NCBI GenBank assembly: GCA_903882935.1
Contig: CAIRZB010000084.1
Coordinates: 1 to 64,000, forward strand
Direction: 5' to 3'
DNA length: 64,000 nucleotides
Source of the DNA: an uncultured Parafilimonas sp.
Lineage (GTDB): Bacteria > Bacteroidota > Bacteroidia > Chitinophagales > Chitinophagaceae
Part shown: in pieces, positions 25,201 through 62,661 of the stretch
Layout of the letters: each line of letters opens with the position of its first letter
How positions within the stretch are numbered: position 1 is the stretch's first letter
Position numbers and translations under genes: made by a program
The notes under the pieces: generated by a model
Told to the model about the DNA's origin: nothing
Seen by the model: only the letters and a program-made list of their open reading frames with translations
The model's database searches: none

Positions 25201-26154
25201 TTAAACCACCCCTTTCGCACTCAAATACCGCTCGGCATCCAACGCCGCCATACAACCGCTGCCCGCGGCAGTTACGGCTTGGCGGTAAATTTTATCTTGC
25301 ACGTCGCCTGCTGCAAAAATACCTTCAATATTAGTTTTGGAACTGCCTGGTACGGTTTGTATGTAACCGGCATCATCCATATCAATCCATTCTTTAAAAA
25401 TATCACTGTTGGGCTGGTGGCCTATGGCTACAAAAAAAGCACTCACTGGCACCTCGTCCAATTCGCCTGTTACCACATTTTTAATTCGCACGCCATTTAC
25501 TTTGTTTTCACCCAGCACTTCATGCGTTTCGCTGTTCCAGTATATTTTAATGTTGGCGGTGCTTTTAACCCTGTCCTGCATAACCTTGCTGGCCTTCATG
25601 GCATGCTCGCCTTTGCGTACAATCATGTGCACTGTGGTAGCCAGTTTGCTAAGGTATAATGCCTCTTCGCAAGCAGTGTCGCCCGCGCCTACAATCGCCA
25701 CCTCTTTGCCACGGAAGAAAAACCCGTCGCATACCGCGCAGGCACTCACACCGTAACCGTTTAAACGCTGCTCACTTTCCAAGCCAAGCCATTTGGCCGA
25801 AGCACCGGTGGAAATTATAACCGCATCGGCCTCAATCCATTTTTCTTCGTCAATCTGCACCCTATGCACCGGGCCACTAAAATCGACTTTGGTAGCCAAG
25901 CCGTAGCGTATATCGGTGCCCATGCGGGCGGCCTGTTTTTCAAAATGTACCATCATTTCCGGGCCTTGTATTCCCTCCGGGTAACCCGGATAGTTTTCTA
26001 CTTCTGTGGTTATCGTCAACTGGCCGCCCGGTTGTATGCCCTGGTATAACACCGGTTTCATATTAGCCCTGGCTGCATAAATGGCCGCCGTATACCCGGC
26101 CGGCCCCGAGCCTATTATTAAACAATGCACATGCTCTGTGGTTCCTGTTTCCAT
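25201..26154 (-). CDS. trxB: Thioredoxin reductase
   Basis: A 317-residue low-molecular-weight thioredoxin reductase. The FAD motif is IIGSGPAGYTAAIYAAR (about 13-29), the redox-active pair is C139-A-V-C142 followed by DGFFF, the NADPH motif is IVGAGDTACEEALYL, and the C-terminal FAD motif reads GIFAAGDVQDKIYRQAVTAAGSGCMAA. Length and motif order are standard. It transfers electrons from NADPH to thioredoxin in the cytoplasm, supporting ribonucleotide reductase and disulfide reduction. A TATTTTTG element 22 bases upstream is the likely promoter. Probably monocistronic. Confidence 0.97.
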   Translation of the reverse strand: METGTTEHVHCLIIGSGPAGYTAAIYAARANMKPVLYQGIQPGGQLTITTEVENYPGYPEGIQGPEMMVHFEKQAARMGTDIRYGLATKVDFSGPVHRVQIDEEKWIEADAVIISTGASAKWLGLESEQRLNGYGVSACAVCDGFFFRGKEVAIVGAGDTACEEALYLSKLATTVHMIVRKGEHAMKASKVMQDRVKSTANIKIYWNSETHEVLGENKVNGVRIKNVVTGELDEVPVSAFFVAIGHQPNSDIFKEWIDMDDAGYIQTVPGSSKTNIEGIFAAGDVQDKIYRQAVTAAGSGCMAALDAERYLSAKGVV

Positions 26155-26176
26155 ACGCTGTTTTATGTAATGACGG

Positions 26177-26184
26177 CAAAAATA
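26177..26184 (-). promoter_or_regulatory. TATTTTTG -7 element of trxB
   Basis: Minus-strand TATTTTTG matches TAnnTTTG and lies 22 bases upstream of the trxB ATG at 26154, a typical distance for short-leader Bacteroidota transcripts. Confidence 0.45.
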
Positions 26185-26347
26185 CTAAACCTTGCAGTTA
26201 TTTGGCACGGTTATAAAAAGCCGCCGCCGTTTGGGGATAACAAGCTTGAAAATACTTTGGCTGCCGGCTGTAGTTTTTCATGGAATCGCCTCTTGCGTCG
26301 CGCTCTTATACGGCTTTAGCTTTGCGGAGCTTTCCCCGCATTATTTC

Positions 26348-26394
26348 AAGGGACTTTAGGGACATTAAGTGCCTTTTACGTCCTAAAGTCCCTT
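26348..26394. repeat. Long imperfect hairpin upstream of the repeat mosaic
   Basis: AAGGGACTTTAGG (from 26348) pairs with CCTAAAGTCCCTT (ending 26394); the inner part adds two pairs after a bulged G. The loop is about 16 bases and no T-tract follows. It opens a 0.8-kb gene-free stretch full of hairpins. Confidence 0.6.
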
Positions 26395-26474
26395 AAAAAT
26401 TAAACAAACTTACCCACAGAAGACATCCTTTAAAGCAGGTCATATGTTATCTGCGCCATGTACATCAATCACAA

Positions 26475-26697
26475 ACCCCATTAGGGGCGGCATGTTAGTA
26501 GCCAGTTACACAAAAATGTTTCAATTAGCTCCGTATGGAGCGGCATGTGAACATCCGCAAACCTTAAAGCTAAGCGTAATGCCGTTTGTAACTTTTGGCA
26601 TTTATGTTGCCCGCGTAACGTTACACGTCGCTCCATACGGAGCTTGCTTTGCAATCTTTGCCTGATTCTACTAACATGTAGCCTCTATGAGGCTAAG
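26475..26697. repeat. BIME/REP-like mosaic of four hairpins in two orientations
   Basis: Four small hairpins each carry a CATGT-type tail on one side. Forward: CCCC-ATTA-GGGG then CGGCATGTTAGTAG (26476-26501), and GCTCC-GTAT-GGAGC then GGCATGTGA (26528-26550). Reverse: GCTCC-ATAC-GGAGC (26630-26643), the exact complement of the second, and TAGCCTC-TAT-GAGGCTA (26679-26695), whose complement is followed by CATGTTAGTAG as in the first. The order is forward, forward, reverse, reverse, as in bacterial interspersed mosaic elements. No coding capacity was seen. Confidence 0.7.
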
Positions 26698-26743
26698 TTA
26701 GATAACTGTGAACAGTTTGTAATTTTCGACAGCATGTCTGAAG

Positions 26744-26799
26744 TTTACAGCCTTTAAACCGTCGCCACAGGCGACAGCATATAACTGCGGAACTGCAAG
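26744..26799 (+). repeat. 56-bp direct repeat, left copy
   Basis: Runs from TTTACAGCCTTTAAACCG through a GTCGCC-ACA-GGCGAC hairpin to GGAACTGCAAG. It is identical base for base to 31783-31838 and in the same orientation. Sequences on either side of the two copies differ. Together they bracket the SDR/AraC block at 27163-31689. Confidence 0.85.
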
Positions 26800-27162
26800 C
26801 CTGCCTGCCGGCAAGGGCAGGTGCCCAACCACTACCCATTCAACTCGCCGATAATTCCAGCCAATCACTAAAAAGAGAAAACCCTGAATTTGTATACAAC
26901 AATCAGTAATTAGTGTTAATAGCAGCCCGCAAAGCCCGCCCACCTTTGTATAAATAAAATGAAAAGATATCTAACACTAATAATTTGGGGAAGACCAATG
27001 AAATAAAAAAAGTCTCAGCCAACTCATGGCTTACATACATATACACTTTAACAACTCTTTTCCGGTATCGGACAACGACTGTGTCCAAAAATTTGAGATC
27101 GCAAAAACAAGTACGGGACCCGTTTGGTAACTGAAATTTCTAAATAACATTACCACAAAAAA
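26800..27162. other. Gene-free upstream region of the SDR block
   Basis: Contains a CTGCC/GGCAG inverted repeat just after the 56-bp repeat (about 26800-26822) and then AT-rich DNA leading to the first SDR gene. A GGACA/TGTCC hairpin lies near 27069-27085. No clear promoter consensus and no credible gene were found. Confidence 0.4.
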
Positions 27163-27975
27163 ATGAACATGCAAAAGATAGTATTGATAACCGGAGCTTC
27201 ATCAGGCATAGGCAAAGAAGGCGCCAGACAATTGATTAAAGACGGTCATAAAGTTTACGTAGCAGCAAGGCGTATAGAAAACATGAACGACTTAAAGCAG
27301 ATGGGCGGCTTGCCAATGCAAATGGATATAACGAACGAAGGAGACATTGAGAAAGTTGTAAATACTATTATTAAAAACGAGGGAAAGATTGATGTATTGT
27401 GGAATAACGCAGGCTATGGCTTATATGGTGCTGTGGAAGACATTTCAATAATTTACGCTAAAAACCAATTTGACGTAAATCTTTTTGGGTTGGCAAGTAT
27501 CACGCAAAAAGTAATTCCGTTTATGAGAAAAGCTAAATCGGGTACAATTATCAATACTTCATCAATGGGCGGAAAAATGTATTCTCCCTTAGGTGCTTGG
27601 TATCATGCTACAAAACATGCTTTAGAAGGCTGGAGTGACTGTTTGAGACTTGAATTGGCTTCTTTTAATATTAAGGTTGTGATTTTGGAACCAGGTATAA
27701 TTAAAACTGAATTTACCGATGTAATAACAGGGCCTATGGTAAAATATTCAGGCAAAGGTGCATATTCCAACATGGTAAATTCTATCATTAAATCAACCAC
27801 TACGGTTAAAATGTCTCCTGCATCGGTTATTTCAAATACTGTTTCCAAAATTATAAACACAGCTAATCCCAAAACAAGATATAGAGTTGGTGCCTGGGCT
27901 AAGCCAATGGTGTGGATACGTATTTATTTAGGCGACATATTGTTTGATAAACTAATAATGAGCCAAATAAAATAA
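27163..27975 (+). CDS. Short-chain dehydrogenase/reductase, paralogue 1
   Basis: A 270-residue classical SDR. The cofactor motif is TGASSGIG near the N-terminus, NNAG follows at about 90, the catalytic Ser is in IINTSSMGG, and Tyr/Lys in WYHATKHALEGWS. It probably uses NADP(H) to oxidise or reduce a carbonyl or alcohol; the substrate is unknown. Base composition is clearly AT-richer than in flanking housekeeping genes. The start may be the ATG at 27163 or 27169, the latter matching the next gene, which begins MQKVVLITGAS. It is followed 10 bp later by a paralogue with roughly 60-65% identical residues, so this is a tandem duplication. Member of the block bracketed by 56-bp direct repeats. Confidence 0.9.
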   Translation: MNMQKIVLITGASSGIGKEGARQLIKDGHKVYVAARRIENMNDLKQMGGLPMQMDITNEGDIEKVVNTIIKNEGKIDVLWNNAGYGLYGAVEDISIIYAKNQFDVNLFGLASITQKVIPFMRKAKSGTIINTSSMGGKMYSPLGAWYHATKHALEGWSDCLRLELASFNIKVVILEPGIIKTEFTDVITGPMVKYSGKGAYSNMVNSIIKSTTTVKMSPASVISNTVSKIINTANPKTRYRVGAWAKPMVWIRIYLGDILFDKLIMSQIK

Positions 27976-27985
27976 TACAACCAAT

Positions 27986-28792
27986 ATGCAAAAAGTAGTT
28001 TTAATAACAGGAGCCTCACAAGGGATGGGTAAAGAAACAGCAAGGCTGCTAATTTCCAAAGGGCACAAAGTTTATGCAGCAGCAAGAAGTATTGATAAAA
28101 TGAACGAATTAGCAAAAATAGGCGGATTTCCAATTCAAATGGATATCGCTAATGAAGACGATATACAAAAAGTGGTAGATACAATTATCCAAAAGGAAAA
28201 CAAAATAGACGTATTATTCAATAACGCCGGCTTAATTTTAAATGGTGCAATTGAAGATATTGGGATTGAAGAAGCACGATATCATTTTCAAGTAAATCTT
28301 TTTGGTTTGGCTAGCCTTACGCAAAAGGTAATTCCATACATGCGAAAAGCCCAATCAGGCACTATCATAAATACAACTTCTGTAGGGGGAAAAATGTATT
28401 CACCGTTGGGAGCTTGGTATCATGCTTCTAAACATGCCTTGGAAGGCTGGAGTGACTGTTTACGATTGGAGCTAAAGCCATTCAATATAAAAGTGGTAAT
28501 ACTAGAGCCGGGTGCTATAGAATCCGAATTCGGAGACGGACTTGAATCGCAACTGACAAGGAATTCCGGGAAAAGTGCCTATTCATCAATGGCTCAATCA
28601 TTAATAAAATCAGGAGGTTCATTAAAAAGGTCTCCACGGTCAGTGATTGCAAAAGCGGTAGATAAAATAGTAAACAACAGCAACCCTAAAACACGTTATG
28701 CCATAGGAAATTTAGCTAAAACCCTAATTTGGCTACGTGTTTATTTAGGCGACACATTGTTTGATAAACTAATAATGAGCCAAATAAAATAA
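27986..28792 (+). CDS. Short-chain dehydrogenase/reductase, paralogue 2
   Basis: A 268-residue SDR with motifs TGASQGMG, NNAG, INTTSVGG and YHASKHALEGWS. It is the tandem copy of the preceding gene, with divergence concentrated in the N-terminal and substrate-loop regions, while the last 53 nucleotides including the stop differ at one base only. That contrast suggests recent gene conversion or selection at the 3' end. Short spacers (10 bp upstream, 9 bp downstream) indicate an operon with the propeller protein that follows. Substrate unknown. Both copies keep the catalytic Ser-Tyr-Lys, so both should be active. Confidence 0.9.
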   Translation: MQKVVLITGASQGMGKETARLLISKGHKVYAAARSIDKMNELAKIGGFPIQMDIANEDDIQKVVDTIIQKENKIDVLFNNAGLILNGAIEDIGIEEARYHFQVNLFGLASLTQKVIPYMRKAQSGTIINTTSVGGKMYSPLGAWYHASKHALEGWSDCLRLELKPFNIKVVILEPGAIESEFGDGLESQLTRNSGKSAYSSMAQSLIKSGGSLKRSPRSVIAKAVDKIVNNSNPKTRYAIGNLAKTLIWLRVYLGDTLFDKLIMSQIK

Positions 28793-28801
28793 ATAATTAC
28801 A

Positions 28802-29956
28802 ATGAAAAAAATATCAATAAAAATAGCACGTATCCTCTTTCTAAGAATTGTGCCTGTCTTGGTGGGCATTGTTGTTGTCGGGTTAATCGTCATCAAGATA
28901 AAGTATGGCACAGGCAAAACTTACACAGATATTGGAACAGAAAATCCTGAAGGGAATAAACACCTTGAAAAATTAATAAAGCTGGATTATCCGCCTGGTA
29001 ATGTTGCCATAGGGGAAAACGGGCATGTGTACTTTAATTATCATCCGTTAACCCATCCAACGCGGTTTAGTAATGCAACAGTTTTTGAATGGGCCGACGG
29101 AAAAATTACCCCGTTTCCTTCTGCTGACATGCAAAAGAATTTTCAGGGAACTTTTGGTTTAACTGTTGATAAGCAAAATCATCTTTGGTTAGTTGAGCCT
29201 GCAACGTTAGATTTTAAACATACCCGTGTTTGGGCGTTTGATTTAACCACGAAGAAAACTTTTCATTACTATGAATTTCCTGAAGGCGTTGCAAAGCAGG
29301 CGGAAGATATCCGCGTTACCGGAGATGGCAAATATGTTATCTTTCCTAACCCCGGCATTTTTAGGTTTACCAATTCGCAACTGCTGGTTTATTCTGTAGA
29401 TGACCATAGTGTGAGAGCCGCCATTGATGGCGACCCGAGTGTGACTGCCGAAGATTGGACAATGCAGATAAATGGTAAGCCTTATCGTCTTGCTTACGGT
29501 TTGTTTAACTTTGATGTTGGTATTGACGGCATTGAAATTAGCGATGACCAACAGTGGTTATACTTAGCTTCCATGACCAATTCGCATTTGTACCGTGTGC
29601 CGTTGGCAGATGTGTTGAATAAAAATATTACCCCCAAAGATGTTGCAGCCAAGATTGAAAATATAGGTGCAAAGCCCATGAGTGATGGGATAACGCTTGA
29701 TAAAACGGGCAATGTAATTATTACCGATGTTGAGCATGGCGGCTTAATGTCATTTAATATTGCCACTAAAAAAATAGCTACGCTGGTACGTAATAAAGCA
29801 ATAGTTTGGGCAGATGGTGTAGTTGTTGGCGCTGATAATACAATCTACTTTAATGATAGTGCAATTCCATCATACATTGGGCAGTTTGCTGCGCCACCTG
29901 ATGTAAATTTATTACTTCAACATAAACCGTATTACATTTATAGGCTGAAACAATAA
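28802..29956 (+). CDS. Membrane-anchored MRJP/yellow-type beta-propeller protein
   Basis: A 384-residue protein with one N-terminal transmembrane segment (about 12-32, IVPVLVGIVVVGLIVI) and an extracytoplasmic domain. The domain resembles the major royal jelly/yellow family, a six-bladed propeller related to SMP-30/gluconolactonases: VDKQNHLWLVEP, GIDGIEISDDQQWLYLASMTNSHLYRVP (quoted in parts), SDGITLDKTGNVIITDVEHGG and VWADGVVVGADNTIYFND are typical blade motifs. Bacterial members are mostly uncharacterised; a hydrolytic or ligand-binding role is conceivable. It lies 9 bp after the second SDR and 20 bp before the AraC gene, so it is probably part of one operon. Confidence 0.78.
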   Translation: MKKISIKIARILFLRIVPVLVGIVVVGLIVIKIKYGTGKTYTDIGTENPEGNKHLEKLIKLDYPPGNVAIGENGHVYFNYHPLTHPTRFSNATVFEWADGKITPFPSADMQKNFQGTFGLTVDKQNHLWLVEPATLDFKHTRVWAFDLTTKKTFHYYEFPEGVAKQAEDIRVTGDGKYVIFPNPGIFRFTNSQLLVYSVDDHSVRAAIDGDPSVTAEDWTMQINGKPYRLAYGLFNFDVGIDGIEISDDQQWLYLASMTNSHLYRVPLADVLNKNITPKDVAAKIENIGAKPMSDGITLDKTGNVIITDVEHGGLMSFNIATKKIATLVRNKAIVWADGVVVGADNTIYFNDSAIPSYIGQFAAPPDVNLLLQHKPYYIYRLKQ

Positions 29957-29976
29957 GCCGTTTTAAAATTCAAAAC

Positions 29977-30885
29977 ATGAAAGAGGTACATCACATTGAG
30001 AGCATTAGTGCGTTAAATAAATTGTTGAACCAGGAAAAACCAACGCATCCATTAGTTTCTGTTGTTGATTTATCAAAAGTTGAGCGTTGTGGGGAGAATA
30101 ATGTAAAAACAACTTTAGGCTTTTATACCATCATGCTTAAAAACAATTATTGTGGCAGACTGAAATATGGCAGGGAATATTATGATTTTGAGGAAGGCAC
30201 TTTAGTTTGCATTGCACCCAACCAGGTTGCTTATATTGACAATGAAGGCGGAGAACAAACCGAAGTAGAGGGTTGGGGATTGTTCTTTCATCCCGACCTG
30301 ATAAGAGGAACTTCGTTAGGAAGTAAAATGAAAGCCTACAGCTTTTTTTCTTATGAGGTAAATGAAGCCCTGCATGTATCCGAGAAAGAAAAACAAACGT
30401 TGAATGATTGTATTACAAAGATTGAAACTGAACTTTCGCAAAACATAGACCATCATAGCCGCAACTTGATTGTTTCAAATATTGAATTGCTGCTGAATTA
30501 TTCTTTGCGGTATTACGACAGGCAGTTTATAACACGGAAAACCAAAAATCAGAACATACTAATGAAGTTTGAAAATGTGCTGACAGATTATTTTCAATCA
30601 GACAAACTAAAAAACAATGGCTTGCCAACAGTAAAATATTGTGCTGAACAGCTTTTTTTATCATCTAATTATTTAAGCGACTTATTAAAAAAGGAAACAG
30701 GCAAAAATGCACAAGACCATATTCATCACTACCTGATTGAAGAAGCCAAAAACAGTTTACTCAATTCAAAAGCCACTGTTAGTGAAATTGCATTTAACCT
30801 TGGCTTTGAATATCCGCAATATTTTAGCAAACTTTTTAAAAGCAAAACCGGCACAACCCCTGCTGAATACAGAAACCTAAGTTAG
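29977..30885 (+). CDS. AraC-family transcriptional regulator
   Basis: A 302-residue regulator. The C-terminal part (about 205-300) has the two helix-turn-helix motifs of AraC/XylS proteins: TVKYCAEQLFLSSNYLSDLLKKETG and VSEIAFNLGFEYPQYFSKLFKSKTG (given in segments), ending with TTPAEYRN. The N-terminal half is a probable ligand-sensing beta-barrel. It lies inside the SDR block and most likely controls it, perhaps together with the SDR gene 24 bp downstream. Composition is AT-rich like the three preceding genes. The inducer cannot be deduced. Confidence 0.9.
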   Translation: MKEVHHIESISALNKLLNQEKPTHPLVSVVDLSKVERCGENNVKTTLGFYTIMLKNNYCGRLKYGREYYDFEEGTLVCIAPNQVAYIDNEGGEQTEVEGWGLFFHPDLIRGTSLGSKMKAYSFFSYEVNEALHVSEKEKQTLNDCITKIETELSQNIDHHSRNLIVSNIELLLNYSLRYYDRQFITRKTKNQNILMKFENVLTDYFQSDKLKNNGLPTVKYCAEQLFLSSNYLSDLLKKETGKNAQDHIHHYLIEEAKNSLLNSKATVSEIAFNLGFEYPQYFSKLFKSKTGTTPAEYRNLS

Positions 30886-30909
30886 CATTCACAATTAAAA
30901 GATACAAAA

Positions 30910-31689
30910 ATGGAACTCAACAAAAACACTATATTAATAACAGGCGGCACCAGCGGTTTCGGTTACGAATTTGCAAACCGGCTGCTTGCGCTGGGCAATA
31001 CAGTCATTATCACAGGCCGCGACCAGGCAAAGCTCGACCTCACTAAAAAGAAGCTGCCCGGCGTTTATACCTTCCAAAGCGATGTAAGCGACCCTGAGGC
31101 CATTGAAAAGCTATTTGAAAGGGCGACCGCGCAATTTCCGCAATTAAATATACTCATCAACAACGCGGGCGAAATGCGAAAGATAGACCTGCAGGATGAA
31201 TCTATCGATCTGGATAATATCGTCCGCGAAATCAATATCAACCTGTCCGGCCCTATCCGCATGGTGCAGGCTTTCCTGCCACATTTAAAAACAAAAAGCA
31301 ATGCGGCTATATTAAATGTAACCTCAGGTCTCGCGCTGATACCATTTCCATTAACGCCCATATATGGAGCCACAAAAGCAGGTTTGCGTTTTTACACCAA
31401 ATCACTGCGTGTGCAATTGAAAAATACAGGAATCCGCGTATTTGAACTCGTCGCACCCGGCTCCAGTACGCCATTGCACGACAAATTTTCCGGCGATGTG
31501 GATGACAGCAGGTTGATGGACCCGGTAAAGCTGATAGATGTAGCCATTAAAGGCCTCCAAAGCGATAAGTTCGAGATATATCCGGGCCTTGCTAAAGTCA
31601 TGAATATCGTCAGCCGTATCGCTCCATCGGTTATTTTTAACCAGCTGAAGAAGATCACCGAAAAGTCGCTGGCCAAAACAAAAGCATAA
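30910..31689 (+). CDS. Short-chain dehydrogenase (DltE-like)
   Basis: A 259-residue SDR with TGGTSGFG, NNAG, NVTSGLA and YGATKAGLRFYTKSLR, the last being the Tyr-x3-Lys motif. The TSGFG...FANRLL pattern and the C-terminal half resemble the DltE-like group. It is not close to the two paralogues upstream, and by eye its GC content is near 50% against under 40% in the four preceding genes, so it probably has another origin. It is the last gene before the right copy of the 56-bp repeat. Function and substrate are unknown beyond NAD(P)-dependent oxidoreduction. Confidence 0.88.
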   Translation: MELNKNTILITGGTSGFGYEFANRLLALGNTVIITGRDQAKLDLTKKKLPGVYTFQSDVSDPEAIEKLFERATAQFPQLNILINNAGEMRKIDLQDESIDLDNIVREININLSGPIRMVQAFLPHLKTKSNAAILNVTSGLALIPFPLTPIYGATKAGLRFYTKSLRVQLKNTGIRVFELVAPGSSTPLHDKFSGDVDDSRLMDPVKLIDVAIKGLQSDKFEIYPGLAKVMNIVSRIAPSVIFNQLKKITEKSLAKTKA

Positions 31690-31782
31690 TTTTATAATTA
31701 TCTATATGAACGTAAGTTCGGTCTAAGCAGCCAGATAACGTTGTTTATTATTATCTTCAAATTGTATGTAGCACTTCTAAAT

Positions 31783-31838
31783 TTTACAGCCTTTAAACCG
31801 TCGCCACAGGCGACAGCATATAACTGCGGAACTGCAAG
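31783..31838 (+). repeat. 56-bp direct repeat, right copy
   Basis: Identical to 26744-26799 over 56 bases. Here the end is extended by TTCCGC, so that GCGGAACT-GCA-AGTTCCGC forms an additional perfect 8-bp hairpin that is missing in the left copy. It lies 22 bp from the cysK stop and could also help terminate cysK. Confidence 0.85.
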
Positions 31839-31860
31839 TTCCGCAGCGCGTAGCAAAACC

Positions 31861-32775
31861 TTATGCAAACAGCCCGTCAATACTCAAATAGCGTTCGCCA
31901 GTGTCGTAGTTAAATATCAGCACCTTGCTGCCCGTTGGTATTTCGCTTAGCTTTTTAGCCACTGCTGCCATGGTTGCCCCGCTGGATATGCCTTGAAAAA
32001 TACCTTCTTCCTTAGCCGCGCGGCGGGCGTACTCAAACGCTTCATCCTTGCCTACGGTTATAACCCCGTCAAGTACATCAGTATGCAGGTTGGTAGGTAT
32101 AAAACCGGCACCTATGCCCTGTATTGGGTGCGGTGCGGGGCTGCCGCCGCTAATAACGGGCGACAATTCTGGTTCCACGGCAAACACCTTCAGGTTTGGG
32201 AAATGCCTTTTTAATTCCTCACCAACCCCGGTAATATGCCCGCCGGTACCCACGCCTGTAATTAAAAAATCAACCCCTTCAGGAAAATCAGCCAAAATTT
32301 CCTGCGCGGTTGTTTTTATATGCACGTCAATATTCGCTTGGTTGTCAAATTGCTGTGGCATCCAGGCGTTGGGAGTGGAAGCTACCAGTTCTTTCGCTCT
32401 TTCAATGGCGCCTTTCATCCCCTTTTCACGCGGGGTTAATTCAAATGTGGCCCCGTAAACGCTCATCAGCCGCCTACGCTCAACGCTCATGCTTTCTGGC
32501 ATAACCAACACCAGTTTATAGCCCTTTACCGCAGCCACTATGGCCAAGCCAATACCTGTATTGCCCGATGTTGGCTCAATTATAACGCTGTTGGCGTTAA
32601 GCAACCCCTTTTTTTCTGCATCCTCTATCATGCTTAATGCAATACGGTCTTTTATACTGCCGCCTGGGTTGGCACGTTCCAATTTACTCCACACCTCAAT
32701 GTTGGCGGGGTATAAACGGTTAATGCGCACGTGCGGTGTATTCCCAATGGTTTCTAAAATGCTGTTCGCTTTCAT
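31861..32775 (-). CDS. cysK: Cysteine synthase A (O-acetylserine sulfhydrylase)
   Basis: A 304-residue PLP enzyme. The PLP lysine is K42 in [12 protein letters not shown], the substrate loop is TSGNTGIG, and the phosphate-binding loop is [17 protein letters not shown] near the C-terminus is also standard. It makes cysteine from O-acetylserine and sulfide in the cytoplasm. It lies 186 bp downstream of cysE in the same direction, so the two steps of cysteine synthesis are together. The gap includes a 14-bp tandem repeat (32806-32833), so an internal promoter is possible. The C-terminus ends [12 protein letters not shown]; CysM is less likely from motif form and size. Confidence 0.95.
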
Positions 32776-36964: not shown

Positions 36965-37062
36965 ACTCCGTTGGAGTGGGCACACAACCGACACCAGCCG
37001 CCTTTGAATTGTGTCTTCACAATTCCATTAATGCGATACCTGTAGGCGCAGCATGTTAAATT
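36965..37062. repeat. Composite hairpin repeat, copy B
   Basis: Starts with the hairpin ACTCC-GTT-GGAGT (36965-36977), then ACACAACCGA shared with copy A, then a hairpin GAATTGTG-TCTT-CACAATTC (37006-37025), and ends with CCTGTAGG followed by CGCAGCATGTTA, similar to the CATGT-tailed hairpins at 26.5 kb. It occupies most of the MFS to lnt gap, where no gene was seen. Confidence 0.6.
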
Positions 37063-42958: not shown

Positions 42959-45634
42959 ATGAAAAAATATATTATATTACTTATATGTATTGCTGTTGCC
43001 AGGCCATGCTTGGCTTTACACATTTCGGGTGGCGAGCTGTACTATAATTATACTGGGCCTGGTGCTGCGGCCAATACCGACAATTACAAAATAACGCTTC
43101 GGCTTTTTAGGGAGTGTACCCCGGTAACCCCCAACGGACAAACGGCTGCCCCCATGCCGACCGAAGTGGAGCTGGGTATTTTTATAAACACCGCCGGCGG
43201 CGGCACCCTGTTGCAGCCAGTAATAGTAACCCGCACAGAGTATGACGTTATAAGGCTACAATCACCCGTTACCTGCATTACAAACCCACCCGTGGTTTGC
43301 TACCAAATTGGTTATTTTACAATGGCCATCGATTTGCCCAAACAGCCTTATGGCTATACCATTGCATACCAAACCTGTTGCCGTTCGTTCAGCATACAAA
43401 ACATTGAGTTTTTTCTCATCCAGGGGCAAAACACACCAGCAGAAGGCGCCACCTACAGTTGCACGATACCCGGCACCAACCTACTCGGCAATACTGAAGT
43501 AAATTCAAGCGCTGTTTTTGCCGTGAAGGACACCGTATTGGTTTGCCAGCAAAAAAAAATAACGCTCGACTTTAGTGCCACCGACCCCGACACAAAAAAC
43601 CCTCTGTATAAGGATTCGCTGTCTTATTCCTTTTGCGATGCCTACGACAGGGGGGCCGCCCAAGGCTCTGGCGATGTAATACCTTCCCCACCCCCATATA
43701 ATTCGGTTACGTATTCAGGCAACTACAGCGGCGATGCACCGCTAGGCCCACAGGCGGTAATTAACCCTGCTACAGGCATCATTACCGGTTATATAGGTGC
43801 CTCCGGGGGGTATGTGGTAAACGTATGCGTTACTGAATGGCGGCATGGCAAAGTTATCAGCGTACACCGCAAGGATTTTCTACTGCGGGTGGCCGCCTGC
43901 GATTTTGCGGCCGCCGATTTAAAGCCATCGTATATAACCTGCAATGGCTATAACCTTTCGTTCCAAAACGAGTCAACGTCGTCTTCCATCACATCGTACT
44001 ATTGGAATTTTGGTGTGCAAGGCACCAACTCCGATACTTCCATCAGCCCCACCCCCACTTATACTTTCGCAGATACTGGCACCTACGTGGTAAAACTGGT
44101 GGTAAACAAAGGCCAGCAATGCTCCGACTCGGCCACGGCATTGGCAAAGGTTTACCCCGGTTTTAAAGCCAATTTTGGCATTGTCGGCAACTGTTTGCAA
44201 ATCCCCTACCATTTTATTGATTCTTCGGTGTCTAAATATGGTGTTATAACAAGTTGGCTTTGGAATTTTGGAGACAATACGGCCACCAGCTTCACCCAAA
44301 ACCCAGCCCACCAGTACACAGCCCCTGCCACCGTTACCGTATCGCTCACGGTTAACAACAGCGAAGGCTGTACCGATACGTATACCAAGCCGCTTATTGT
44401 AAGCGAAAAGGCCACCATCTACCTGCCTTTTACCGACACGCTTATTTGCAACGTGGACACACTGCGGCTGTTTGCCAGCACCAGTGCCGCTTCAAACTTT
44501 ACATGGTCGCCCAGTTACAATATTATAAACCCAGCCACGGCAAGCCCCTTGGTGTACCCACAAACAAAAACAACCTATACCGTGCTTTCTGATGACGGCC
44601 ATGGCTGTACCAACACAGGTACCGTAACGGTGAATGTGGCCACACAAGTAAACATACGCCTAGGTAACGATACCACTATTTGCGCGGGCGATACCGTGCA
44701 AATAAAAAACTATACAAATGCTTTGTATTTTGCCTGGCAGCCCGCGCTTGCCCTAAACAGTGCATCGGTTATTCAACCTTTGGCATCGCCCACAAACGCA
44801 ACAACATATACCGTGTTGGCCAGCATCAGCAACAAATGCACCGCAACGGCAAGCATAAATATACGCACTGCACCCTACCCATTGGCCAAGGCTGCACCCG
44901 ATACAAGTATCTGTTTTGGCAAAACTGTTCAGTTAAAAGGCTCCGGCAATGGCTCGTCTTTTGCGTGGTCACCAACAAACTCATTATTTAATGCCAACAC
45001 GTTAACACCTATTGCAGGGCCGCAAGCCACCACCATTTACAGGCTGGCTGTGTACGACACGGTGGGTTGCCCAAAACCGGGGCTGGCCTATGCCACAGTC
45101 AGCGTTTCGCAGCCAGTTAATGCCTTTGCAGGCCACGACACCGCTATTGTAATTAACCAGCCGTTACAACTAAATGCCACCGGCGGTACCAATTATACAT
45201 GGTCGCCTACCAACGGGCTAAACAACGCCGGCATACCCAACCCGGTGGCTGTATTGAATGGCAGCGAGGCTGATTCCATCACCTATACCGTTAAAGTTAC
45301 CAACGCAGGTGGCTGCACCGGGTATGCCCATGTTACCGTGCGTGTTTTTAATACGCAACCGCAAATTTTTGTGCCATCGGCATTTACACCCAACAGCGAC
45401 AGTAAAAATGATGTTTTAAGACCCATTGTGGCGGGTATGCGTACTTTTAACTACTTTAAGGTATTTAACCGCTGGGGAAACCAGCTTTTTAGCAGTGGCG
45501 ACCCACAAGCGGGATGGGATGGCAGCTTTGCAGGCAAACCCCAGCAAAGCGGTACCTATATATATCTGGCCCAAGCGATTGACTACCTTGGGCATATTTA
45601 TAACAAAAAAGGCACTGTAGTGTTAGTTAGGTAA
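42959..45634 (+). CDS. Large secreted protein with PKD-like repeats and T9SS type B sorting domain, paralogue 2
   Basis: An 891-residue protein with the same plan as the preceding gene: signal peptide (MKKYIILLICIAVARPCLA), N-terminal domain (LHISGGELYYNYTGPG, ITLRLFRECT), two PKD domains (TSYYWNFG, TSWLWNFGDN), four instead of five tandem Ig/PKD-like modules, and the type B sorting domain (SAFTPNSDSKND, FNRWGNQLFSS, KGTVVLVR). The upstream regions of both genes contain TACTTTCATAC, so promoter and gene were probably duplicated together. Many paired cysteines suggest disulfides outside the cell. Ligand unknown. Confidence 0.9.
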   Translation: MKKYIILLICIAVARPCLALHISGGELYYNYTGPGAAANTDNYKITLRLFRECTPVTPNGQTAAPMPTEVELGIFINTAGGGTLLQPVIVTRTEYDVIRLQSPVTCITNPPVVCYQIGYFTMAIDLPKQPYGYTIAYQTCCRSFSIQNIEFFLIQGQNTPAEGATYSCTIPGTNLLGNTEVNSSAVFAVKDTVLVCQQKKITLDFSATDPDTKNPLYKDSLSYSFCDAYDRGAAQGSGDVIPSPPPYNSVTYSGNYSGDAPLGPQAVINPATGIITGYIGASGGYVVNVCVTEWRHGKVISVHRKDFLLRVAACDFAAADLKPSYITCNGYNLSFQNESTSSSITSYYWNFGVQGTNSDTSISPTPTYTFADTGTYVVKLVVNKGQQCSDSATALAKVYPGFKANFGIVGNCLQIPYHFIDSSVSKYGVITSWLWNFGDNTATSFTQNPAHQYTAPATVTVSLTVNNSEGCTDTYTKPLIVSEKATIYLPFTDTLICNVDTLRLFASTSAASNFTWSPSYNIINPATASPLVYPQTKTTYTVLSDDGHGCTNTGTVTVNVATQVNIRLGNDTTICAGDTVQIKNYTNALYFAWQPALALNSASVIQPLASPTNATTYTVLASISNKCTATASINIRTAPYPLAKAAPDTSICFGKTVQLKGSGNGSSFAWSPTNSLFNANTLTPIAGPQATTIYRLAVYDTVGCPKPGLAYATVSVSQPVNAFAGHDTAIVINQPLQLNATGGTNYTWSPTNGLNNAGIPNPVAVLNGSEADSITYTVKVTNAGGCTGYAHVTVRVFNTQPQIFVPSAFTPNSDSKNDVLRPIVAGMRTFNYFKVFNRWGNQLFSSGDPQAGWDGSFAGKPQQSGTYIYLAQAIDYLGHIYNKKGTVVLVR

Positions 45635-56317: not shown

Positions 56318-56522
56318 GCGGCATAGCAGGTTAACAGCAACCAGCACGGGGGGGCATCTACCGTTAAGTTAATTGTTAGCGTAAGGTTTGTTTCCATTAG
56401 CAAATAGCTTTGATGATTATAAGCATATTTTAATAGAATGTTTTAGAAATTTTTATGCTGTTTTAAGCTGGCAGTATAAAAACTCCCCTAATTTTATCCC
56501 ATCCAATAAATCCAACAATTCC

Positions 56523-56951
56523 ATGAAAAAGCTAAACCAAATCGTCATCATTGACGACCATCAACTGTCTGGTGTAATTAATGAGCTGTTAATTATGCAA
56601 TTTAACTGCGTTGAAAACATTGTAGTATTTGACGACCCCTACATCGCAATCGACTATTTTACCGACTTAAAAAACCAATCACTTTTTGAGGATGTTATTT
56701 TCCCAGAACTAGTACTTACAGATTTTAACATGCCCGGTTTAAACGGTTTTGAAGTTATACAAGCCATTAAAAATTTGGAGCTGCCCCAAACAGTCAATTG
56801 TTGCTTATTATCTGCCTCTATTGACAGAATTGACCCCATTATTTTACAACAACACCATGTATTTAAACAGCTGTCTAAACCTTTGGAAAAAAAGGAATTT
56901 ATGGCGGTGCTGGATTTGCTTGAAAACAGCCCTGAATATTCCCAAGCGTAG
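56523..56951 (+). CDS. Single-domain response regulator, duplicate 1
   Basis: A 142-residue receiver-only protein from the ATG at 56523. The acidic pocket is VIIDDHQ, phosphoacceptor Asp lies in LVLTDFNMPGLNG, the switch residue is Ser in LLSAS and the Lys in LSKPLEKKEF. It lacks an output domain, so it must act through partners. A close paralogue follows at 57432, and their upstream leaders are also similar. No kinase is adjacent. The frame extends upstream to 56388 without domain content, so the internal ATG is preferred. Confidence 0.88.
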   Translation: MKKLNQIVIIDDHQLSGVINELLIMQFNCVENIVVFDDPYIAIDYFTDLKNQSLFEDVIFPELVLTDFNMPGLNGFEVIQAIKNLELPQTVNCCLLSASIDRIDPIILQQHHVFKQLSKPLEKKEFMAVLDLLENSPEYSQA

Positions 56952-57236: not shown

Positions 57237-57431
57237 CGGCACTGCACCATTAGCCTTTGGGATGGGCATCAGGCTATTTGGACTGCCCCAACGGTAGATT
57301 TACGATAGTGGCACTGGCACGTACTGCTGTTTAAACCCCTATTAGGTGGGCTTTTGATATTTTATGCTGCTTTTAAGCCCGGGGTAATAAAATCGAGCTA
57401 CCTTTATGTAATCCAATTAATCCAAATTTCC

Positions 57432-57851
57432 ATGCAAAAACTGCAACAAGTCGTTATTATTGATGACGACGAATTATCCGGCGTTATAAACGAGCTTCTT
57501 ATTAGGAAGTACAACTGCGTTGAAAAAATCGTTGTGTTTGATGACCCCCACGATGCCATTGATTATTTTGCTGCTTTAAAAAACAAGGCACGAAGCGAAG
57601 AAGTTACTTTCCCAGAATTGGTGTTGACAGACTTTAACATGCCAGGCATGAATGGTTTTGAAGTAATACAAAGTATTAGAAACCTTAACCTGCCCCAAGA
57701 AGTAAGTTATTGTATCTTGTCAGCATCTATCGACAGGATGGAACCTGCCATTTTACAAAAGCACCACGTACTTAAGCAGCTTATTAAACCCCTTGAAAAA
57801 AGAGAGTTTATGGAGGTGTTGGAATTACTTACCAATACATTGGTTTGCTAA
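57432..57851 (+). CDS. Single-domain response regulator, duplicate 2
   Basis: A 139-residue receiver-only protein, about two thirds identical to the gene at 56523 by eye. The pocket is VIIDDDE, Asp in LVLTDFNMPGMNG, Ser in ILSAS, Lys in LIKPLEKREF. The leader before the ATG repeats that of the first copy (TTTATGCTG, TTTTAAGC, ATCCAAT, AATCCAA, TTCCATG in the same order), with TAnnTTTA in both as a possible -7 element. Duplication of gene plus promoter is therefore likely. Partner kinase unknown. Confidence 0.88.
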   Translation: MQKLQQVVIIDDDELSGVINELLIRKYNCVEKIVVFDDPHDAIDYFAALKNKARSEEVTFPELVLTDFNMPGMNGFEVIQSIRNLNLPQEVSYCILSASIDRMEPAILQKHHVLKQLIKPLEKREFMEVLELLTNTLVC

Positions 57852-62380: not shown

Positions 62381-62505
62381 GGTCATTAGGTCAATGGTCA
62401 GAAAGGAGTATTCATGCATATGGTTGAGGCATCGCAGTGAAAAAGCTGTTGAATGGTGCAAATGACGCCGGCTTAATATTCATGACTCCTGGCTGCCTAT
62501 TCAAG

Positions 62506-62645
62506 TTTCTCCATTCACGATTGACGTTCCACGATTGACGATTCCCGTTCCACGATTGACGATTCCCGTTTCACGATTGACGATTCACGTTTCTCGTTTC
62601 ACGTTTCACGTTTCACGTTTCTCGTTTCCCGTTTCACGATTGCCC
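62506..62645 (+). repeat. 7-bp-periodic repeat array, copy 2
   Basis: Twenty consecutive heptamers without register shift, from TTTCTCC to ATTGCCC. Typical units are TTTCACG, ATTGACG, ATTCACG, ATTCCCG, TTCCACG and TTTCTCG, with the CG at positions 6-7 and TT at 2-3 nearly invariant. The array ends 20 bases before the recR ATG and reads in the same sense as that of copy 1 relative to the gene behind it. No spacer structure, so it is not a CRISPR. Confidence 0.92.
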
Positions 62646-62653
62646 TATTGGCT

Positions 62654-62661
62654 TATCTTTG
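62654..62661 (+). promoter_or_regulatory. TATCTTTG -7 element of recR
   Basis: Perfect TAnnTTTG match, only 4 bases before the recR ATG at 62666 and just after the heptamer array. The transcript would be leaderless or nearly so. Confidence 0.5.

Follow-up and report, generated by a model that had tools for sequence, protein, structure and literature searches.

Copies of a repeat resembling repetitive extragenic palindromes on both sides of an accessory five-gene block in an uncultured Parafilimonas

The subject of this study is a stretch of 64,000 nucleotides from an uncultured Parafilimonas sp. (contig CAIRZB010000084.1; the whole stretch is called the window below), in which two identical direct repeats of 56 bases bracket a block of five genes between trxB and cysK. 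Inspection of the sequence had led to the proposal (the original prediction) that this is a cassette inserted or excisable by recombination between the repeats, with a common dispersed element that happens to occur on both sides as the alternative. Our analysis indicates that the repeat is a repetitive extragenic palindrome (REP)-like element of a known kind, and repeat and block together look like ordinary genome traffic, not like a new kind of excisable cassette.

Organisation of the locus

The features are as follows. GC3 is the G+C content at third codon positions, SDR denotes a short-chain dehydrogenase, and R1 and R2 are an initial and a corrected covariance model of the repeat.

25201..26154, minus strand: trxB, left flank
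26155..26743, no strand: palindrome-rich spacer upstream of trxB
26744..26799, plus strand: copy 1 of the REP-like repeat, 56 bp (R1 40.9 bits, R2 36.3 bits)
27163..27975, plus strand: SDR1, PRK06182 subfamily (NF004826 over cut-off; GC3 0.333)
27986..28792, plus strand: SDR2, tandem relative of SDR1 (NF004826 over cut-off; GC3 0.287)
28802..29956, plus strand: MRJP/SMP-30-type propeller protein with, by our reading, an N-terminal hydrophobic segment (GC3 0.352)
29977..30885, plus strand: AraC-family regulator (GC3 0.341)
30910..31689, plus strand: SDR3 (GC3 0.533, like its surroundings)
31783..31853, plus strand: copy 2 of the REP-like element, complete (R1 68.5 bits, R2 69.2 bits, fold z -4.32)
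31861..32775, minus strand: cysK, right flank

Open reading frames (ORFs) and family matches agree with the original prediction on the five genes between the repeats: three SDRs, a propeller and an AraC regulator. Four of them are AT-richer, as it had also held, with GC3 values well below the 0.503 (sd 0.028) of the 31 other window ORFs of at least 200 codons; these first four genes are foreign in composition and SDR3 is not. Its statement that no integrase or transposase lies inside holds as well, in that none of the five block proteins matched such a family (Pfam, E≤0.001). No recombinase was found among these proteins, the rest of the genome having been searched for Y1_Tnp only. There is no tRNA in the window and no ORF of more than 81 residues in the spacer at 26160-27160. 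The block has the look of a functional AraC/SDR neighbourhood, and its composition suggests that two or more sources contributed to it; from the families one might guess its role to be carbonyl reduction under AraC control. The 3' ends of SDR1 and SDR2 (27163-28792) are alike, with 87% identity over 78 nt, which suggests duplication or gene conversion.

Structure of the two repeat copies

The two direct repeats, 26744-26799 and 31783-31838, do not differ at any of their 56 bases, and their starts are 5039 bases apart. Ungapped extension takes the match to 69 bases (from 26731 and 31770) at 94% identity; further out the flanks diverge, so that the differing flanks originally described begin beyond this extension. 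Nine of the outer 13 bases of the extension are identical, a level reached by 0.15% of random 13-mer pairs from the window. The core CGTCGCCACAGGCGACAGC, allowing up to three mismatches, was found at two window sites, both of them the repeat copies, and at none in each of 100 shuffles, so the pair is not due to chance. Within the Parafilimonas genome (5.54 Mb, 114 contigs) the exact 56-mer occurs only twice, which makes the window copies sisters. A blastn search of this genome with the 69-base query gave 11 matches, namely the two window copies and nine others at 80-87% identity over 37-49 bases, the window copies being much nearer to each other than to any further copy found.

In aligned family copies the unit consists of two hairpins: the first has a stem of 6 bp, the second, 9 nt further on, a stem of 10 bp, and each has a 3-nt loop. 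Copy 2 has both (hairpin 1 at 31800-31814, hairpin 2 at 31824-31846). In copy 1 hairpin 1 is complete (26761-26775), and hairpin 2 (26785-26799) breaks off 2 nt beyond its 5' arm and loop, where the copy adjoins a different hairpin; copy 1 plus flank folds no better than shuffled sequence (z -0.70). The pair consists of two direct singletons and forms no inverted doublet. R2 was run on the window and 20 other loci. In the window it found the same two elements and, weakly (E 0.0064), the hairpin of copy 2 itself read on the opposite strand; the 20 other loci gave no match at E≤0.1.

Copy 2 lies between the convergent SDR3 and cysK, 110 nt from the SDR3 stop and 14 nt from that of cysK. According to an excerpt of PMC3733652, REPs are mostly found between unidirectional and convergent genes, and in two species those at convergent sites are mostly no more than 20 bp from both 3' ends. 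We also considered an intrinsic terminator for copy 2 and rejected it: the hairpin is stable, but no adjoining T-run was seen by eye on either strand.

The repeat family in the genome

The hairpin GTCGCCACAGGCGAC, with up to two mismatches, occurs at 43 places in the genome, compared with 6 for a reversed control. R1 gave 76 matches at E≤0.01 and at least 58 at E≤1e-6; as it scored 150 of 2370 candidates in this genome and at most 148 in each relative, its counts are lower bounds and its absences are soft. R1 was built with helix 2 in the wrong register, and its scores reflect sequence and helix 1. The alternative named in the original prediction, a dispersed element on both sides, is thus borne out by these matches; the copy count that it proposed gave a divided answer, the exact 56-mer being present twice and not in dozens while the family is present in dozens. 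When the 58 of the 76 R1 rows scoring at least 39.9 bits were examined for doublets, 34 of the 58 copies fell into 17 inverted doublets. Outside this genome, R1 at E≤1e-6 gave 7 matches in G001, 2 in G020 and 1 in G011, and none in the remaining 35 of 38 relatives (at most 148 candidates scored each).

The structure was examined in an alignment of 20 hand-picked copies, 18 of them obtained through the GTCGCCACAGGCGAC pattern and two (L002, L007) through blastn, so that the pairing of helix 1 is partly selected. For hairpin 2, pairing holds in 89% of cells, compared with no more than 44% after sliding the partners, and 9 cells are changed on both sides, a count equalled in 1 of 500 shuffles. 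A GT[AG]G foot has no fixed position on either strand in the 20 copies and occurs only sporadically. This excludes canonical REPs; it does not exclude the repeats that accompany subclass 2.6 of the REP-associated tyrosine transposases (RAYTs), since the relevant passages of PMC6006769 describe these as lacking the foot.

In a comparison of 30 REP loci, which includes copy 2 and leaves out copy 1, all 22 locus pairs sharing at least 50 exact bases fall inside a single local cluster each. Related direct copies a few kb apart exist elsewhere too; the best of four separated comparisons, on contig C3, has 87% identity over 115 nt at a distance of 3 kb. Ordered clusters of REPINs (paired REPs) are described in an excerpt of PMC3116915 as tandem repeats that include flanking sequence.

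It might be supposed instead that one REP subfamily inserted twice independently, once on each side of the block, with no history shared with it. The family is indeed dispersed, and copies on contigs C10 and C114 share part of the left flank (TTTAA...CC), so the mobile unit may exceed 54 bases. Yet the search found no third near-identical copy in the genome, the nine further blastn matches being those at 80-87% described above. Both window copies are moreover singletons, and in Pseudomonas fluorescens it is doublets that move while singlets look immobile, as far as the cited part of PMC3116915 goes. We regard two independent insertions as quite unlikely.

A candidate transposase for the family

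The genome contains five Y1_Tnp matches, and one of these, on contig C39, lies within a cluster of the repeats. Nine family copies occupy C39:42472-43869 (L093) around the RAYT gene at 43114-43659, with six to one side of it and three to the other. The cluster is REPtron-like in appearance, and the six copies on one side form three similar inverted doublets in tandem. On NF047646 (REP-associated tyrosine transposase; cut-off 80) the ORF of 181 aa reaches 111 bits; it is weak both on PF01797 (24.7 bits, cut-off 23) and on the solved TnpA-REP 4er8 (E 0.018). Its motifs are NHLH, WQ and YIHNNP, with 83 residues from NHLH to YIHNNP. Subclass 2.6 (RAYT group 5) is characterised in the relevant part of PMC6006769 as mostly from Bacteroidetes, with a length of 179, the motifs NH[LIV]H, WQ and YIH[QN]NP and a median HuH-Y distance of 82, and its repeats as atypical secondary structures without a GT[AG]G foot. 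The predicted motifs and spacing of the C39 protein fit this subclass, and it probably drives the spread of the repeat family.

A CGTC-tagged repeat superfamily (PMC3733652) was tried as another identity for the repeat and rejected: in comparison with the excerpted description, a C precedes hairpin 1 in just 8 of the 20 copies, and stems and loops differ. The same excerpts report no transposase beside CGTC repeats, unlike the C39 cluster, which further disfavours it.

The ends of IS200/IS605 elements lie in direct orientation. The RAYT could conceivably treat two direct REPs as ends of this type and move the five genes as passengers, in a composite single-strand element. The window pair has the matching orientation, a RAYT is present in trans, and the pair stands apart from the 34 of 58 family copies that form inverted doublets. 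Copy 1, however, lacks half of hairpin 2, and the single propeller match in the genome at E≤1e-30 leaves no second copy of such a composite. The related gene cluster of genome G008, described below, also has no REPs in the stretch examined. A RAYT-mobilised composite is unlikely, and we give it very little credence; if true, it would mean that a domesticated REP transposase can serve in gene transfer.

The site between cysK and trxB

The site was compared in 80 named cysK loci listed from the genome collection; beyond cysK, 60 of the 80 stretches cover 3 kb or more and 47 cover 9.9 kb or more. A trxB of more than 55% identity lies near cysK in three: L095 and L096 (UBA4407) and L098 (Chitinophagaceae bacterium DXS). 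L095 is a soil metagenome-assembled genome ('soil' read from the isolate name) and evidently the same record as G002. As most stretches reach well past cysK, closeness of the two genes is confined to near relatives. In all three loci their order and orientation match the window, and between them lies a DUF4249 gene (Pfam 91.5, 90.6 and 91.8 bits, cut-off 28.5). No block gene is found between cysK and trxB in these three, nor any match to R1 or R2, and in the 80 cysK loci there is no propeller or AraC at E≤1e-10 and no SDR above 38% identity. In G001 (L083, evidently the record of L097) a LplA/LipB-type gene follows cysK, and trxB was not found at E≤1e-60 in this genome, which is 63% complete. 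Judged by this comparison, the block is accessory at the cysK–trxB site. Conservation of the block at this site in all relatives had been named originally as an outcome that speaks against a cassette, and what we see is absence in three relatives.

The same comparison bears on whether the repeats could come from misassembly, a short-read assembler having fused unrelated stretches at a repeat of roughly k-mer length. The assembly consists of 114 contigs, and 56 bases is close to a common assembler k-mer length. Against this, trxB and cysK are close together in the same order and orientation in three relatives, which means that the linkage of the outer flanks across the block is correct. An artefact of this kind seems extremely improbable.

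Traces of the arrangement in the relatives appear to persist on the trxB side. Over 32 bases, positions 26160-26191 are 91% identical to the sequence upstream of trxB in L095, and the DUF4249 genes of L095, L096 and L098 all have an end that is matched by TTATCCCCAAA at 26240-26230. By itself the latter match is weak (11-12 bases, E 0.12-0.47); it counts because it is collinear with the conserved sequence upstream of trxB, the distance between the two being 51 bases in L095, 50 in L096 and 49 in the window. In L098 the spacing differs (70 vs 57) and the upstream match has just 9 bases. No residual DUF4249 coding sequence was detected by tblastn of 26100-27170 (best E=0.3), and the closest match to the DUF4249 protein in the Parafilimonas genome, on another contig, has 30% identity. 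Thus 26230-26240 is a probable remnant of the end of a lost DUF4249 gene, and the ancestral gene would probably have been lost here. The conserved trxB-side sequence ends at this point, about 500 bp outside copy 1, so the repeats do not delimit the changed stretch on the trxB side.

Further palindromes were noted in 26155-26850, at 26527-26548/26623-26644 (22 nt, 91%), 26348-26394, 26679-26695 and 26800-26821. These spacer palindromes may belong to further repeat families. A search for four other palindromes from this spacer in loci of the same genome, covering a small part of it, found only the CTGCCGGCA core again, at one locus.

Relatives of the block elsewhere

Relatives of the propeller are rare. 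At E≤1e-30 they occur in 3 of 294 family genomes, including the Parafilimonas genome with its single match; at E≤1e-50, 2 of 395 genomes from the phylum contain one, this genome among them. A propeller scan of named genomes found no relative, and 14 of 72,556 plasmid records hold homologues, all below 60% identity, with a best value of 29% among the 10 matches listed. SDR3 homologues at E≤1e-60 are present in 16 of the 294 family genomes, this one included; in 6 of 11 loci (1.5 kb flank) a near-full-length AraC homologue lies beside the SDR3 homologue, and a partial one in one more.

A similar cluster lies on contig C41 of G008, a genome from another genus of the same family, where an SDR (66% to SDR1), a 166-aa ORF, a propeller (67%) and an AraC regulator (59%) follow each other in block order on one strand. 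The cluster resembles the window block in its SDR-propeller-AraC order on a single strand. It differs in having a single SDR instead of two, the extra 166-aa ORF, no close SDR3 relative and other neighbours. R1 had no match within the 15 kb examined around it.

These results can be set against a route by recombination between REPs, in which an incoming circle carrying the block and a REP recombined into a REP beside cysK, leaving one copy on each side as a pair that can still delete the block. The direct orientation and the perfect identity over 56 bases are as expected for such an event, and a deletion of the block with one copy would leave a single intact REP next to cysK. The block also has four genes of foreign composition and is missing from three relatives. 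The incoming REP must, however, have shared 17 to 30 flank bases with the resident one, the conserved trxB-side sequence ends some 500 bp outside copy 1, and the G008 cluster is without a REP in the stretch examined. We consider this route unlikely.

Other repeats in the window

A tandem array of a degenerate 21-nt unit occupies 62473-62654. Direct repeats of 300 nt at 56519-56818 and 57428-57727 (71% identity) are perhaps tandem paralogous genes. Similar potential hairpins at 305-330 and 37006-37031 (GATTTGTGTCTTCACAAATCCCCTAA, 85%) are possibly another small palindromic repeat.

Discussion

The reading that we favour, and hold to be probable, is that the two repeats are sister REP-like copies, locally duplicated, around an accessory, acquired AraC/SDR operon, and are not dedicated cassette ends. 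The C39 RAYT presumably propagated the two-hairpin family in trans. The two copies would go back to one REP that was duplicated locally together with its flank, as in other REP clusters of this genome, and the block would have arrived by horizontal transfer, between or beside them; the truncation of copy 1 would have come later. Copy 2 may now serve as a transcript-end hairpin, and the direct pair could permit rare deletion of the block. Excision by such short-homology recombination is possible.

A number of observations weigh against this account. The order of events rests on a single genome, from which it cannot be read. The window pair, at 5 kb, lies further apart than the near-identical pairs within clusters, and its identity tops all four other separated comparisons; with this wide spacing and top identity, a causal link between repeat and block still has room. 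The window pair is the most similar of the separated direct pairs and thus still somewhat special. Copies in the same doublet have overlapping flanks, which inflates the list of 22 pairs. As to structure, two pairs of hairpin 2 are changed on both sides (263 of 500 shuffles as high) and there are 7 pair types (139 of 500 as high), neither number going beyond shuffling; sliding the structure by +3 raises the covariation score slightly, from 0.077 to 0.085.

The cassette idea stands in part. The block is accessory, being absent from the three of 80 cysK loci with trxB near, and four of its genes are foreign. The repeats as its ends are not supported: conservation on the trxB side gives out some 500 bp before copy 1 is reached, the G008 cluster has no repeat in 15 kb, and no recombinase occurs among the block proteins. 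No empty site with a single repeat copy was found among the three relatives with cysK near trxB, none of which belongs to the window species. The REP identity explains the repeat and removes the need for an unknown excision system.

Comparison with known systems

Integron cassettes and att-bounded islands share with the window block the identical direct repeats at its flanks and a mostly foreign composition. They differ in that the block proteins include no integrase and the window no tRNA, and in that the repeat belongs to a family of at least 58 copies and conservation does not end at it. Given the lack of a recombinase among the block proteins and of a tRNA in the window, together with the dispersal of the repeat, we rejected an integron or att-bounded island.

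The likeness to REP/REPIN systems with a subclass 2.6 RAYT is closer. The length, motifs and motif spacing of the C39 RAYT agree with the values in the relevant part of PMC6006769, and the repeats of this genome are dispersed, in inverted doublets and without a fixed GT[AG]G foot. Two differences are that the unit here is two hairpins 9 nt apart, where the portion of PMC6006769 drawn on here describes the repeats without a sequence, and that the window pair is of direct singletons instead of a doublet. The family provides a concrete repeat and a probable transposase for RAYT subclass 2.6, whose repeats are called atypical in that same portion, and knowing the two-hairpin unit could assist in working out the recognition target of these transposases.

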